46,223 bases of DNA from Ilumatobacter sp. Lineage in GTDB: Bacteria > Actinomycetota > Acidimicrobiia > Acidimicrobiales > Ilumatobacteraceae. Position 1 is the first letter of the stretch. The number at the start of each line of letters is the position of its first letter. The DNA lies in the NCBI GenBank assembly GCA_020439405.1, contig JAGQSS010000005.1:1-46223 (forward strand). Direction: 5' to 3'. The position numbers and the translations under genes are program-made. This document shows, piece by piece, positions 18,339 to 24,894 of this stretch. The notes under the pieces were generated by a model. That model saw nothing but the letters and a program-made list of their open reading frames with translations. It made no database searches and was not told the DNA's origin.

Positions 18339-18479
18339 GGTCGGTTGATGTCAGACACGAACCGACCACCCCATCGCCGGGATGACCACCACCCGGTCGG
18401 TTGATGTCAGACACGAACCGACCACCCCATCGCTGAAGTGATCGCCACCGGGTCGGTTCGTGTCTGACATCAACCGACC
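18339..18479. repeat. Element A: three copies of a 29-bp near-palindrome, 56-bp period
   Basis: Three identical 29-base units lie at 18339-18367, 18395-18423 and 18451-18479; the third is inverted. Each has 8-base arms GGTCGGTT and AACCGACC, a 2-base mismatch on each side, and a central TGTCAGACA with a one-base centre. Start-to-start spacing is exactly 56 bases both times. The two 27-base spacers also resemble each other: both begin ACCCCATCGC. Copies 1 and 3 cover the expected -35 positions of the divergent flanking promoters, so they could be operators. They could instead be a dispersed palindromic repeat. This fills most of the 191-base gap before the SnoaL gene. Confidence 0.9.
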
Positions 18480-18493
18480 ACATCCGTGCCGGT

Positions 18494-18506: not shown

Positions 18507-18944
18507 ATGATCAGCGACGAACTGCGGGAGCGTCGGCTCGCGACACTCGACGTCCACTTCCGGTCGGAGGTCGACCACGACTGGGACGCCTGCCTGGCGA
18601 CGTTCGCCGGCACGCCGCGCTACGAGATCGTGCCGCTCGGTCACGTCCACGAGGGCGACGAGCAGGTGCTCGCCTACCACCGCGCCCAGCGCACGGCGTT
18701 CCCCGACCAGCGTCACGAGAACGCCCGCTTCCACGTCGCCGACGACGACACCGTCATCGCCGAGTTCGACCTGATCGGCACGAACACCGGCGAGTTCGTC
18801 GGCGGCGCGCCGACCGGCAAGGCGTTCCGGGTCCCGACGATCGCCGTGTTCTCCTTCGACGACGACAAGATCACCAACGAGCGCGTCTACCTCGACGTCC
18901 TCAGTCTCCTCACCCAGATCGGCCGCACCGACCTGGTCGGTTGA
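18507..18944 (+). CDS. SnoaL-like (NTF2 fold) protein
   Basis: A 145 aa single-domain protein of the SnoaL/NTF2-like superfamily, a cone-shaped fold found in small cyclases, isomerases and dehydratases. An N-terminal helix pair (ELRERRLATLDVHFRSEVDHDWD) is followed by beta-strands with EIVPLGHVHEGDEQVLAYH, AFPDQRHE and FDLIGTNTGEFVG, which match SnoaL-like ester-cyclase proteins. Substrate and reaction are unknown. The gene stands alone between two sets of near-palindromic repeats: element A ends 27 bases before it and element B begins at the base after its stop. The fold is fairly sure, the function is not. Confidence 0.75.
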   Translation: MISDELRERRLATLDVHFRSEVDHDWDACLATFAGTPRYEIVPLGHVHEGDEQVLAYHRAQRTAFPDQRHENARFHVADDDTVIAEFDLIGTNTGEFVGGAPTGKAFRVPTIAVFSFDDDKITNERVYLDVLSLLTQIGRTDLVG

Positions 18945-19031
18945 GAACGGATGTGGTCAGACCAGGTCCGTTCCAGCACGCGGCGAGCATCAGACTCCTT
19001 CGGAACGGACCTGGTCTGACCACATCCGTTC
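18945..19031. repeat. Element B: inverted pair of a near-palindrome, probable bidirectional terminator
   Basis: Two 30-base arms at 18945-18974 and 19002-19031 are perfect reverse complements separated by 27 bases. The unit itself is near-palindromic: 7-base ends GAACGGA and TCCGTTC, a 2-base mismatch per side, and a central GGTCAGACC region. This is the same plan as element A, with the same GTCAGAC core and the same 27-base spacer but different arms. The left arm starts directly after the stop of the SnoaL gene and the right arm ends 14 bases before the stop of the convergent LLM gene. A 30-bp stem here could stop transcription in both directions. Confidence 0.85.
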
Positions 19032-19045
19032 CCGGCTTCGGCGAC

Positions 19046-19954
19046 CTACTTCGCGGCGAGGAGGGCCCCTCTGGTGGCGGCGATCTCGTCGGGGTTGCCA
19101 CCCATGACGACGGCGGTGAAGTCGGTGGCGCCCGCGGCACGGATGCCGGCGATCCCCTCGACGACCTCGTCGTGGCTGCCGATCAGCGACAGCTCGGCCA
19201 GACCGTGCACGCCCTCGATGTCGAGCATCGCCCGGTACGACGGCAGCTCGGCGTAGTTGGCGAGGATCGCCCCGACGAAGTCGCGGGCCGGCTGCGGATC
19301 GTCGGTCACCCAAACGGGCAGGCTGCACACGATGCTCGGCGTCGGCCGACCTGCTGCGTCGGCGGCACCGTCGATGATCGGCTTGATCTGCTGCTCGATC
19401 GTCTTCGGGCCGACGCACCACAGGATCGTGCCGTCGGTCCGCTTGCCGGCGACCCGGAGCATCTGGTCGCCGAGCGCCGCCAGCATCACCTTCGGCGGTT
19501 CGTTCGTGGGCCGCGTGCCCTCGCCGACGTAGCTGAAGATCTCGCCTTCGTGATTCGACGCGCCTTCCTCGAGCAGGGGCTGGAGGATGTCGAGGTAGTC
19601 GAGCATGTGCCGCACCGGCTTGTGCCACGCCATCTTGTAGCGGTCCTCGACGATCGGACGGTGCGACAAGCCGATACCGAGCACGAACCGGCCGCCTGCC
19701 GCCGCCTGAGCCGTGAGGGCGGACGCCGCCATCGCGTGGGGGTGGCGCGGCCACGTCGGCACGACCGCGGTGCCGAGGGTGAGCGACGAGGTCTGCGTCC
19801 CGATCAGGCCGAGCATGGCCTGGGCGTCGAGCAGCGCCGTCTGTGCGAGCCAGTAGCTGTCGAAGCCGTCGGCTTCGACCTGGACCGCGGCGGCGGTGAT
19901 CGCGCCGAGGTCGGGATTGACGAGTTGGTCGGAGCCGTTGATGCCGATCTTCAC
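19046..19954 (-). CDS. LLM-class (luciferase-like) F420-dependent oxidoreductase
   Basis: A 302 aa TIM-barrel enzyme of the luciferase-like monooxygenase superfamily, in the actinobacterial subgroup that usually uses reduced coenzyme F420. Supporting motifs are EADGFDSYWLAQ near the N-terminus, LTLGTAVVPTWPRHPHAMA around 58-76, GGRFVLGIGLSH at about 87-98, PPKVMLAALGDQMLRVAGKRTDG and the C-terminal LIGSHDEVVEGIAGIRAAGATDF. The substrate is unknown. The start is the GTG at 19954, with TACGGT 6 bases upstream. It is convergent with the SnoaL gene across element B. F420 versus FMN use is inferred from the family. Confidence 0.87.
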   Translation of the reverse strand: MKIGINGSDQLVNPDLGAITAAAVQVEADGFDSYWLAQTALLDAQAMLGLIGTQTSSLTLGTAVVPTWPRHPHAMAASALTAQAAAGGRFVLGIGLSHRPIVEDRYKMAWHKPVRHMLDYLDILQPLLEEGASNHEGEIFSYVGEGTRPTNEPPKVMLAALGDQMLRVAGKRTDGTILWCVGPKTIEQQIKPIIDGAADAAGRPTPSIVCSLPVWVTDDPQPARDFVGAILANYAELPSYRAMLDIEGVHGLAELSLIGSHDEVVEGIAGIRAAGATDFTAVVMGGNPDEIAATRGALLAAK

Positions 19955-20532: not shown

Positions 20533-23500
20533 TCAGGCGGCCACGTCGGCCGGAAGTGACGAGAACACGTCGGCGACCTGCAGCACCGTCGGTTGCCGAT
20601 CGACGAGCAGCACACCGCGGCCGGGCGGCATGCGGAGCCCCGGCCGCAGCGAGAGCTTGACACCGGTCGCCTGCAGGAACTCGGTCGGGTCGGTCGGCTG
20701 GAGGACCAGCGACCGACGCGCCCGACGAAGTTCGTTGACCGCGGCGCTCGTCGTGTAGCCGGTCATCGAGCGAGACTCCATGGTGGCGACGATCCGGATC
20801 TCGTCGACGGCGAGCAGGCGCTGCCAGAGCGGATCGAGCGTCGGGTCGTCGAACGCGTCGACGTCGTCGACGAACAGCAGCACGGGCCGCTCGGGCGACA
20901 CCGAGGTGACCCGATTGGCGATCCGGTCGAGCAGCTCGGCAACCGCCGGTGCCCGCCCGAACCTCGCACGACCGACCGGCACCGCAAGGCCCGCGAGCGG
21001 TGACGACGACGGCCCGACGAGGTACGAGTCGTCGGTCGCGAGCGCGTGCCAGGCCGCAGCGAGCGCGGTCGAGCGACCGGAGCGCGACGGCCCGACGATC
21101 GCCAGGTGCGACCAGTCGACATCGACCGTGACCGCCGTGCCCGAGACGTCGGCGACGCCGATCGATCGTGCGGTGCTCGGGCCGAACCGTTCCGGCAGCG
21201 CGCTGCTGACGAGCGGCACCGGCACGCGTCGGTCACCGACGGACTCGGTTGCCAGCGCGCCGAGCGCCTCCGCCTGGCCGCGGGCGGTCGGGTCGACGCC
21301 CTCGACCGCGACCTGGATCTCGACACCGTCGAGCAGACCACGCCCGGCCGTCGCGTCGAAGACGTCGATGCGCTTCGCCGGCACCCCGAGGTCGGCGTAC
21401 GACTGGGGGTCGGCGTGCCGCAGGACGAGGCGGCTCCCGATCGCGGACTGGAGTCGCGTCGGGACGGCGGAGCGACGGTCGGCGGTGACGACGGTGTGGA
21501 TGCCGACGGTCCGTCCGTCGACGACGAGGCGGTGCACCAGTTCGCTCCACGTCTCCCCACCCACCGGGCCGGCGAGCGGGTCGAGCAACGTTTCGGCGAA
21601 CGCCCCGAACCCGTCGATCAGGAGCACGATCCGGTCGAACCGTTCGTGACGGTCGCGGTGGTGGGCGGTCAGGTGTTCCGCCGACGATGACGCTAGAGCG
21701 GCCCGGCGACGGGTCAGCTCGGCGTCGAGAACGAGCAGGTGCCGGGTGACCGCTTCGAGGTCGTCGCCGGTCGCGACGTCGACGACCGACTGCAGCGAGC
21801 GCAACGGCGCCAGGCCGCGCGTCCCGAAGTCGAATGCCAGCGTGACCGCGCCGCCGCCACAGCGCTCGACACCGGCGGCGATCGTGCGCAACAGGGTCGT
21901 CCTCCCCGACCCGCCGGAGCCGAAGACCGCAAGACCACCCGATCGCTCGAGGTCGACGAGCGCCACGCCTTGCGCCTGCCGTTCGGGTGCGTCGTAGCGA
22001 CCGACCACGATCGTCCGACCCGGTTCGTCTCGGGCCGGGGACGACTCCGGGGCGTCCCACGCGTCGGCGAGTCGCACGTGTTCGGGCAACACGTCGCGCC
22101 ACGGTCGTCGCGGCACCGCTGCAGCGACCGAACGAGCGGCGTCGGCGATCGCATCGAGCGCCACGTCGAGTTGCGATGCGCAGGACCGGCCGATCGTGCC
22201 GCTCGTCGAGACGGTCGACGTCGCGGTACTGGGCGAGCCGTCGAGTCGATCGAACGGCCGGACCGTCACGGCGGTGCGTTCGGTCGCCGCCGCGGCGGGT
22301 GCGCTCGCGTACGCGCTCTGGAACTCGACCAGTCGCCGCGGGCCGAGGCGGACCAGGCCGCGACCGCGGAGCGGTGCCGGGATCTCCGCCGCGTCGGGGC
22401 TGTCGAGAACGGCGTTCGACTCTGTGCGGTCGAGCATCCGGAGCGAGATCCGCAGGTTGGTATTGGCGAGGATGTTCTCGTCGACCGCACCGGTGGGACG
22501 CTGGGTCGCGAGCACCAGATGGATCCCGAGGCTGCGTCCGCGCTGCGCGATGTCGACGATGCCGGCGACGAAGTCGGGCACCTCCTTCACGAGGGTCGCG
22601 AACTCGTCGACGACGATCACGAGCGACGGCGGCGCCGCGGCCGGGTCGCGTTCGGCGAGGTCGGCGAGGTCCTTGGCGCGGCCCTCGAGCAGCGCCATCC
22701 GGTGGTGGAGTTCGGCCCGCAACGAGACGAGCGCCCGGTGGGCGAGGCTCGCCGAGAGGTTCGTCACGTACCCGACCGTGTGCGGCAATCGCTCGAAGAC
22801 CTGCGACGACGCACCGCCCTTGTAGTCGACGAACAGGAAGTTCAGGCGCTCGGGCGGATGACGGAGCGCGAGCGCCGCGACGGTCGACTGGAGCAGTTCA
22901 CTCTTGCCGGAGCCCGACGTGCCACCGATCAGGGTGTGCGGTCCGTCGGCGACGAGGTCGAGTTCGACCGGGCCGTCGGCGCCGACGCCGATCACGAACG
23001 GCAGACCCGGACCGCGACCGCGTCGCCACGCTGCCGCGATCGAGTCGACGTCGGGGTGGCCGACCACGTCGAACAGGCCGACCGTACGCGGGATCGACGT
23101 CGTGAGCGACGAGCCCGACGCATCACGTACCGGGGCGAGCGCCCGTGCGACCCGGTCGACGACCGTCGGGCGGACGTGGTCGAGTTCGACGTCGTGGTCG
23201 GGCTCGGTCGGTTCGGTCGTCCAGAGTCGCCCGACGAGGCGGGCACCGTCGGCCTGTGAGACAGCGAGCACGGCGCCCGCCTGGCGTGGGACGTCCGCGG
23301 CGCGGTCGGCGAGCCAGACGACGCTGATCGACGCGTCGCGCGCCAGATCGAGCAGCCGTGCCAACGGTGCCGGGTCGGGCCGCAGAGTCGCATCGAGCAC
23401 GGCGACGACGCGCGGCCAGGCGACGGCCCGCTGGTGGCCGACGGTGGTCTCGCCGACCCGTCGTTCGGCGAGGTCGAGCAGTCGTGCGATCAGGTCGTCG

Positions 23501-24894
23501 GCCGCGCTCGCGCTCTCGGCGAGGTGCGCGCCGACGAGCGGCGACGTCACCGATCGGCAGTGCGGTAACCACTTCATCGCGTCGAGGTTGCGGTCGGGGT
23601 CGACCGCACCGACGAGCGTCACGTCGTCCGGGCTGTGCAGCGTGGCGACCTGGACGACGAGCGCCGCCGCCGTGCCGTCGACGAGGAGCGGATCACCGTG
23701 GACGGCGAGGTGCCGTTCGGTGAGGTCGACGGCGATCGGCACGGCGACGAGCCGATCGGCGCCGCGGAGTCGGCGCTCGGCCTCGACGCGGAGGTCGTCG
23801 TCGCCACCGGCGGCCAGACGCATCTCGAACGCGGCCGTGTCGTCGCCGAGTCCGACCCGTAACCGGAGGACGTCGGGAGCGTCGCGGCCGCGCGGCCACA
23901 GGTCGATCGTGCGGAGTTCGGCTCGACGCACGAGCTGAGCCGTGTCGGGATGGGCGGCGTGGCGGACCCGACCTTCGGTCGCGGCGAGGCCGTCGAACCC
24001 GGCGCGTCGATCGGCGACCATCGAGCGGAACGCTGCGAGATCGTCGGCGAACGATCGGCGGCCCGACCGTCGGTCGTCGACCGCCGTGCCGATCATCACG
24101 ACGGGCGAGACGAGCGTGAAGAGGAGGAACATCGCCTGGCCGGTGACGAAGTACATGGCGACGCCGGCGGCGACCGGCGCGGCGACCGCCACCAGCTGGA
24201 GGCGACGTGGTTCGGGCCGGGCCGGGATCGGGCCGACCGGCTCGACGTCGGCCGGTCGGAGGCAGGGCGGACGGTAGGGCGTGCGGTGGAACGCGACCTG
24301 GCCGAGTCGGTCGCGGTCGTCGCACGGTTGGCGTTCGAACCGCCGGACGACGAGGCGGGTGCCGGCGATCTCGATCGAGTCGCCCAGGTCGATCCGGCGT
24401 GTGGCGCCGGGTGCGACGATCACCCCGGCGACGCGGACGGCGTTGCCCGCACCGGGCGCCGGCGTCAGTTCGGTCGTGCCGCCGGTACCGACGGTGAGCG
24501 TGGCGTGGACCCGGGAGACCGTCGGATCGGCGATCGTGATGTCGGCGCCGGAACTGCGGCCGATCGTGTTGGCGCCGGTCCGGAGGATGGCCGAGTCGCC
24601 GGCGGCCGGCCCGCTCACCACGTCGAGCGCCAGTGCTCGAAGCGGGATCGGATCGTGCGGTGACGCGAGCCCGTCGAGGCGGACCACGTCTCCGGCGAGC
24701 AGATCGAGGTCGGCGACCGGGCGGTCGAGGTCGACGGGTTGGCCGGTGCGTTCGACGACGAGGTGCCGGGTCGACACGCCGACATGGGCCCCGACCGCCG
24801 CCGCGAGGTCGGCACCGGTGTGGTGGTCGTCGACGGTCACGAGGACGTCGATCGAGGTATCGGACCCGGCGAGACGGAGGGCGATGTCGTGCAC
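20533..24894 (-). CDS. FHA-FtsK type VII secretion-like ATPase A (EssC/EccC-like)
   Basis: A 1453 aa membrane ATPase that probably powers export of WXG100-type substrates. Order: a 75-residue beta-rich start that may be ubiquitin-like, an FHA domain (about 105-165; Gly112-Arg113, Ser127, His130, Asn151), two membrane helices (about 233-250 and 253-272), then three FtsK/SpoIIIE modules. The first has an intact Walker A GTSGSGKS (Lys664) and Walker B VIVVDE. The second and third read GSGGSGRTT and GPSRSGRS, with Arg in place of the Lys. Only module 1 therefore looks catalytically standard. The GTG at 24894 sits 7 bases after TACGGT of the shared promoter. EssC-like fits better than classical split EccC because of the FHA. 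Confidence 0.9.
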   Translation of the reverse strand: MHDIALRLAGSDTSIDVLVTVDDHHTGADLAAAVGAHVGVSTRHLVVERTGQPVDLDRPVADLDLLAGDVVRLDGLASPHDPIPLRALALDVVSGPAAGDSAILRTGANTIGRSSGADITIADPTVSRVHATLTVGTGGTTELTPAPGAGNAVRVAGVIVAPGATRRIDLGDSIEIAGTRLVVRRFERQPCDDRDRLGQVAFHRTPYRPPCLRPADVEPVGPIPARPEPRRLQLVAVAAPVAAGVAMYFVTGQAMFLLFTLVSPVVMIGTAVDDRRSGRRSFADDLAAFRSMVADRRAGFDGLAATEGRVRHAAHPDTAQLVRRAELRTIDLWPRGRDAPDVLRLRVGLGDDTAAFEMRLAAGGDDDLRVEAERRLRGADRLVAVPIAVDLTERHLAVHGDPLLVDGTAAALVVQVATLHSPDDVTLVGAVDPDRNLDAMKWLPHCRSVTSPLVGAHLAESASAADDLIARLLDLAERRVGETTVGHQRAVAWPRVVAVLDATLRPDPAPLARLLDLARDASISVVWLADRAADVPRQAGAVLAVSQADGARLVGRLWTTEPTEPDHDVELDHVRPTVVDRVARALAPVRDASGSSLTTSIPRTVGLFDVVGHPDVDSIAAAWRRGRGPGLPFVIGVGADGPVELDLVADGPHTLIGGTSGSGKSELLQSTVAALALRHPPERLNFLFVDYKGGASSQVFERLPHTVGYVTNLSASLAHRALVSLRAELHHRMALLEGRAKDLADLAERDPAAAPPSLVIVVDEFATLVKEVPDFVAGIVDIAQRGRSLGIHLVLATQRPTGAVDENILANTNLRISLRMLDRTESNAVLDSPDAAEIPAPLRGRGLVRLGPRRLVEFQSAYASAPAAAATERTAVTVRPFDRLDGSPSTATSTVSTSGTIGRSCASQLDVALDAIADAARSVAAAVPRRPWRDVLPEHVRLADAWDAPESSPARDEPGRTIVVGRYDAPERQAQGVALVDLERSGGLAVFGSGGSGRTTLLRTIAAGVERCGGGAVTLAFDFGTRGLAPLRSLQSVVDVATGDDLEAVTRHLLVLDAELTRRRAALASSSAEHLTAHHRDRHERFDRIVLLIDGFGAFAETLLDPLAGPVGGETWSELVHRLVVDGRTVGIHTVVTADRRSAVPTRLQSAIGSRLVLRHADPQSYADLGVPAKRIDVFDATAGRGLLDGVEIQVAVEGVDPTARGQAEALGALATESVGDRRVPVPLVSSALPERFGPSTARSIGVADVSGTAVTVDVDWSHLAIVGPSRSGRSTALAAAWHALATDDSYLVGPSSSPLAGLAVPVGRARFGRAPAVAELLDRIANRVTSVSPERPVLLFVDDVDAFDDPTLDPLWQRLLAVDEIRIVATMESRSMTGYTTSAAVNELRRARRSLVLQPTDPTEFLQATGVKLSLRPGLRMPPGRGVLLVDRQPTVLQVADVFSSLPADVAA

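Follow-up and report, generated by a model that had tools for sequence, protein, structure and literature searches.

Paired hairpin repeats around a SnoaL-like gene belong to a genome-wide, probably RAYT-mobilised family in Ilumatobacter

REPINs were described in Pseudomonas fluorescens SBW25 as doublets of REP sequences that form hairpins (Bertels and Rainey 2011, PMC3116915). A second known arrangement, the TIRYT or TIRtron, consists of a RAYT-like gene between inverted repeats with the common motif GGGGWSAS (Di Nocera et al. 2013, PMC3733652), and the TIRs of ORF 1152 in Stenotrophomonas maltophilia are self-complementary and mostly lie close together (PMC3733652). RAYT subclass 2.1, which corresponds to RAYT group 1, carries a Bac_DnaA_C, HTH_23 or HTH_28 domain C-terminally, and REP-like sequences were not found near its genes (Quentin et al. 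2018, PMC6006769). Here, we have analysed a stretch of 46,223 nucleotides (the window) from an Ilumatobacter genome of 4.45 Mb, the assembly of which is 79% complete, in which two sets of near-palindromes, A and B, lie on either side of a SnoaL-like gene. Both sets are members of a genome-wide family of paired hairpin repeats of about 85 bases. They are a known sort of selfish repeat, in a lineage from which it is unreported and with an unusual conserved core; the literature searched, largely outside the subscription journals, contained no account of REPINs, RAYTs and Actinobacteria together, or of Ilumatobacter with palindromic repeats and a transposase.

The features of the locus are collected in Table 1. 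Analysis bore out what a sequence-only reading of this DNA had described for the B repeat, namely near-palindromes of 29-30 nt, inverted and 27 nt apart, with a 2-base mismatch on each side of a central GTCAGAC: the two units (18945-18974 and 19002-19031) are 100% identical, and in each 12 of the 14 arm positions are paired, the exception being the 2-base mismatch beside the core. When folded as single-stranded DNA, each unit gives -9 to -10 kcal/mol (z -3.5 to -4.5) and the whole doublet -39.7 kcal/mol (z -10.8). This doublet begins at the base that follows the SnoaL TGA, directly 3' of the stop and with convergent genes on either side, which is typical placement for the family, and no run of T follows its hairpin in the window sequence. 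Element A comprises three 29-nt units and sits between divergent genes; these too are near-palindromes with a small internal mismatch around a central GTCAGAC or GTCTGAC, and they stand 27 nt apart. Units 1 and 2 are direct and unit 3 is inverted, so the set amounts to an inverted doublet to which duplication of a unit with its spacer has added a direct copy. The half B-type unit joined to its right end is read as a remnant. In arm sequence, the A and B sets represent different families.

Table 1. Repeat units and the SnoaL-like gene, by position in the window
Feature	Position	Strand	Remarks
A unit 1	18339..18367	+	additional direct copy, from a 56-bp duplication of unit and spacer (89% identity)
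A unit 2	18395..18423	+	left unit of A doublet, GGTCGGTTGAT-GTCAGAC-ACGAACCGACC
A unit 3	18451..18479	-	right unit of A doublet, inverted
Half B-type unit GACCACATCCGTGCC	18476..18490		12-nt exact inverted match to 18947-18958
SnoaL-like gene	18507..18944	+	resident, outside the mobile element; Pfam SnoaL 4.7e-20; gene order as in G003
B unit, left	18945..18974	+	30-nt near-palindrome GAACGGATGTG-GTCAGAC-CAGGTCCGTTCC, sequence GAACGGATGTGGTCAGACCAGGTCCGTTCC
B-doublet spacer	18975..19001		27 nt, unconserved
B unit, right	19002..19031	-	exact inverted copy of left B unit

Within the window alone GTCWGAC shows no excess (6 observed vs 12.6 expected), and the family rises above chance visibly only at whole-genome scale. 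There, GGTCWGACC occurs 108 times and its reversed pattern 9 times, and the search for pairs, GTCAGACN{36,66}GTCTGAC, gave 50 compared with 0 in the control; if the core is permitted to be GTCAGRC, 117 doublets are found compared with 1 in the control. The sequence-only reading had proposed a class of elements in which the arms vary while core and geometry stay constant, to be abandoned if GTCWGAC-centred elements proved no commoner than chance, and the first two of these counts come down in its favour.

The anatomy of the family was derived from 54 distinct doublets of this genome. From core to core, 53 of these span 62-69 bp (65 bp in 26), and the arms are mirror-identical across all 29 positions in 31. 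Several arm families surround the one core, and each unit has a polarity in that the triplet next to the core on its outer side (mostly GTG, GAT, CTG or GGG) does not complement the one on its inner side (mostly CAG, ACC or CGG), an asymmetry that points one way in nearly all doublets. The feet swap yet remain paired, as in GGTCGGTT/AACCGACC, GAACGGAT/GTCCGTTC and GCACGGAT/GTCCGTGC, with CAGAAG/CTTCTG in the GTCAGGC family. Across 106 distinct units from three genomes, standard pairs occupy foot positions 3 to 6 in 94-98% of cases, and positions 3 and 5 alternate between different base pairs, which is covariation. No conserved base lies outside the feet of the 54 doublets, which are thus without a GTAG or GT(A/G)G tag. 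The spacers are constant in length, fast-diverging and mostly unrelated; 10 spacer pairs here, and 6 in the congeneric genome G002, exceed every shuffled pair in similarity, and some doublets with related spacers stand at unrelated sites. Read most simply, the doublet is copied as a unit, after which its spacer drifts and its arms are kept alike. In one pair of loci with a related spacer (L009 and L145), both arms differ identically, CGG vs CAG; they seem to have changed in concert, perhaps through hairpin-templated correction.

Gene positions were taken from our own heuristic codon-usage gene caller. By this measure 1 of 52 doublets lies inside a predicted gene (five at contig edges stand undecided), and none of 42 in the sampled stretches of G002. 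Between tandem genes, the doublet is closer to the stop in 23 of 26 gaps, and in 19 of 19 in G002. A distance of no more than 6 bp was seen for stops in 30 of 56 cases (G002, 23 of 55) and for 0 of 36 starts (G002, 0 of 29). Doublets often lie between convergent genes, and some between divergent ones. The stop-proximal pattern is that given for REPs in PMC3733652. The sequence CCCGAG...CTCGGG around the doublet at locus L147 prompted the idea that doublets insert into inverted repeats already present, for instance terminators. We rejected this, as in both genomes the complementarity of left and right flanks does not exceed that of permuted pairs. Also discarded was an avoidance of T at the second base beyond the foot as a target preference, which showed in this genome (P = 3e-4) and was absent in G002.

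A Y1_Tnp search of the genome revealed two genes, on contigs C375 and C79. The former is an IS200/IS605 tnpA adjoining a tnpB-like ORF, and GTCWGAC does not occur in its 3.4-kb locus. The latter encodes a RAYT-like protein of about 300 aa that falls below the NCBIfam RAYT cut-off. On each side of it is a doublet of the same plan with the core GTCAGGC, the 3' doublet encoding the C-terminus of the protein, and GGGGTCAG occurs on both sides, in keeping with the TIRYT trait of GGGGWSAS inverted at both gene ends. The check for a RAYT-type transposase advised by the sequence-only reading has therefore returned such a gene in the same genome, bracketed by doublets. A profile of congeneric RAYTs also picked up a C-terminal RAYT fragment at the end of contig C35, which shares 34% identity with the C79 protein over 99 aa. 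It leads into an A-type doublet, GGTCGGTTGATGTCAGACCAGAACCGACC; arms of the A type are thus likewise present at a RAYT gene, albeit one truncated where the contig ends. No RAYT with B-type arms on both sides was found in this assembly, 79% complete as it is. In another congener, G003, a RAYT gene has an in-frame TAG and is flanked by GTCAGAC doublets. The only RAYT of G002 (locus L219, around C1:4552080-4552868) has tandem GGGTCAGGTGCCAGAGGTGACGACTCGCC-like repeats at 1305-1434 and 2293-2446 of that locus. It is flanked by none of the abundant doublet families of its own genome, which look orphaned or served in trans.

In our alignment of these proteins (A1), N58 H59 x H61 and Y118 x3 N122 are invariant and a P comes next in most members, as in the HUH motif and Y-x3-NP of class 2 TnpA-Y1 (RAYT) enzymes. 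A PDB sequence search with A1 gave no match, and fold comparison was used for this reason: for the Ilumatobacter homologue L034, modelled with AlphaFold (mean pLDDT 86.5), the closest structure is 4ER8 (TMt 0.72), that of a RAYT in complex with a REP hairpin. By eye, two RAYT proteins of the genus, L028 and L033, agree with the Ilumatobacter proteins L034 and L038, respectively, along all of the length compared. The C-terminus of the Ilumatobacter RAYT is modelled as helical with moderate confidence. A domain search detected no HTH or Bac_DnaA_C domain in the Ilumatobacter RAYT proteins; Bac_DnaA_C is above cut-off in the homologues L037, L040, L042 and L079. The Ilumatobacter RAYTs likely belong to subclass 2.1 (group 1).

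We then considered 80 related RAYT loci from named genomes of many phyla. GGGTCAG occurs in the sense orientation within 250 bp upstream of the RAYT genes 45 times compared with 1.65 expected, and inverted downstream 36 times compared with 4.2 expected; it is upstream in 40 of the 80 loci and on both sides in 27. Since the motif recurs at the ends of RAYT genes across phyla, the constant core in the window is a version of the terminal motif of the TIRYT, or subclass 2.1, RAYT clade. The B units read GTGGTCAG, one base off the TIRYT motif GGGGWSAS. Of the core-binding protein that had been suggested for these elements, the match between the core and the motif at RAYT-gene ends stands and fits a RAYT as the reader, so that recognition by such an enzyme is something we infer. 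Palindromic arms around the core were dismissed as a general trait of the clade, as a run of at least 7 paired bases occurs in only 5 of the 80 loci; such runs are still above the control (5.3% vs 0.9% of sites).

Within the class Acidimicrobiia (296 genomes) many doublets occur only in Ilumatobacter, and outside the genus there are few true-looking pairs, with two in G035 and one in G024. Counts per genome within the genus are 117 in the genome studied here, 135 in G002, then 89, 13 and 9, with counts near zero in the others. G008, a complete genome, lacks a RAYT and shows no excess of doublets, and in some congeners a RAYT is present and doublets with this core are all but absent.

The SnoaL gene does lie exactly between the A and B sets, as its coordinates confirm, and had been thought a possible captured passenger. 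This is contradicted by contig C26 of G003, where a TrkA-C gene, SnoaL (89% identity) and a luciferase-like gene follow in the same order with neither repeat set present. The gaps between these genes are 63 bp and about 25 bp in G003, compared with 191 and 101 bp in the window. In G002 too SnoaL, there among other genes, is without adjacent repeats. On this comparison SnoaL is resident and the A and B sets are two separate insertions. The absence in G003 could alternatively be a loss; insertion is simpler, given that the repeats are lacking in two congeners and the family is dispersed. The intergenic remains are diverged, so the base of insertion cannot be fixed. A search of plasmid DNA returned nothing beyond one distant match, which lies in the coding region of SnoaL.

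Two candidates for further empty sites were set aside, L149 because it differs by more than the doublet and L147 because G002 carries a doublet of another arm family there. At this last intergenic site (L147, G000 C352:12170-15240, 1490-1580; L199, G002 C1:477737-478866) both species have doublets and their arm families differ, with GGTCCGTTC in the genome studied here and ATCATCCGAC in G002, and G007 is repeat-free; the site has either been hit twice or had its arms rewritten in place. Some other features of these neighbourhoods were observed. Upstream of SnoaL in G002 (L130, 1500-5200) is a long gene with many internal repeats, fibronectin-type by eye, which is absent at the corresponding place in G003 and the window. 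Beside the luciferase-like orthologue in G006 (C82:88324-88611) are three further short matches to its 3' end (window ~19080-19131), two of them 118 bp apart. The window also encodes, at 20533-24894 on the minus strand, a 1453-aa protein with FHA and FtsK/SpoIIIE ATPase domains that resembles an EccC-type ATPase of type VII secretion.

Taken together, we consider it very likely that the repeats are REPIN-like, non-autonomous elements that a RAYT of the TIRYT type mobilises in Ilumatobacter. The mobile unit would be the doublet, two inverted 29-30 nt imperfect palindromes around an unconserved spacer of about 27 nt, a single strand of which is predicted to fold into one hairpin of about 85 nt. 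The Y1 (HUH/tyrosine) RAYT transposase of the same genome would excise, copy and insert doublets as ssDNA, presumably by way of a single-stranded intermediate. Most likely this RAYT clade recognises the constant core GGTCAG(A/G)C, in which case the arms need only pair and several arm families could coexist, and surviving insertions would be mostly those behind stop codons. This reading draws on the doublet family, the covariation of the arms, the RAYT bracketed by doublets, the core shared with RAYT ends and the repeat-free locus in G003, with further support from the fold of L034 near 4ER8, the related spacers at unrelated sites and G008, which lacks both RAYT and doublets. Against it we count that no RAYT with B arms on both sides was found in this assembly, that the G002 RAYT has another repeat and that congeners exist with a RAYT but few doublets. 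The mobility that had been raised as possible is thus now probable on the strength of the genome-wide family, the RAYT association and the G003 locus, and its mobilisation by the RAYT is what these data would imply.

The doublets might instead serve the host as bidirectional terminators or mRNA 3'-end hairpins, multiplied by duplication rather than by transposition. They are strong hairpins within a few bases of stops, often between convergent genes, as such a role would have it, but the B hairpin lacks a T run, some doublets, the A set among them, lie between divergent genes, the core accompanies RAYT genes in many phyla and the hairpins are absent from the locus in G003; we regard this as improbable, while a secondary host role after insertion is possible. 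A little less probable still is that another enzyme, for example the C375 IS200/IS605 transposase, moves the doublets and that the RAYT merely sits in a repeat-rich place. The genome does have this tnpA with its tnpB-like ORF, and a RAYT with matching B-type arms is missing from the assembly, but the C375 locus is without any GTCWGAC, whereas RAYT genes are core-flanked across phyla.

Two further explanations seem to us to have hardly any chance of being right. If the two sets were the ends of a composite mobile element, the position of SnoaL exactly between them would be accounted for, but the repeat-free syntenic locus in G003, with the same three genes, already refutes this, the sets differ in arm family and dozens of doublets in the genome have no SnoaL. 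The near-palindromes with their constant core, one set of which lies between divergent genes, also bring to mind operator sites of a dimeric DNA-binding regulator; against that stand some 100 doublets of fixed span with mirror-identical units, arms that covary rather than being conserved, and a location near stops and far from starts.

As in the REPINs of SBW25, the Ilumatobacter repeats are inverted imperfect palindromes with a spacer less conserved than the arms, and the two units and spacer come together in one ssDNA hairpin; they are likewise high-copy, dispersed and extragenic, with several families per genome and a RAYT in the genome, which the repeats flank in the case of the GTCAGGC family (C79) and the A arms (C35). 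Unlike in SBW25, the conserved part is the centre of the palindrome and not its end, the arm families are exchangeable around one core, and the host is an actinobacterium of the Acidimicrobiia. The nearest analogue of the doublets is provided by the S. maltophilia ORF 1152 TIRs. The TIRYT pattern is matched by the GGGGWSAS-type repeats inverted around the C79 RAYT and by the enrichment of GGGTCAG in the 80 homologues, and differs from that seen here in that our core is at the palindrome apex and several arm families coexist. The RAYTs of subclass 2.1, or group 1, form a large class of seemingly domesticated transposases with a wide taxonomic spread, and in contrast to the account of Quentin et al. 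such genes are here flanked by REP-like doublets, with about 90-135 copies per genome in three congeners. As Ilumatobacter includes genomes with such numbers, genomes with few and a complete one with neither RAYT nor doublets, the contrast within the genus opens to testing the questions of which part of a REP is recognised and of whether a single enzyme can serve several arm families. The GTAG-tagged enterobacterial REPs and BIMEs and the E. coli RAYT (4ER8) share with our system the stem mismatch, the inverted pairs, the position behind genes and the RAYT fold, but the doublets have no conserved tetranucleotide outside the foot and a different part of the repeat is constant. We would tentatively suggest, as an idea we hold to be somewhat short of evenly likely, that these elements form a separate REP superfamily with an apex tag, GGTCAG, in place of the foot tag GTAG, mobilised by group-1/TIRYT RAYTs, in which one core-reading type of enzyme serves many arm families and the arms, needed for pairing only, change in concert.
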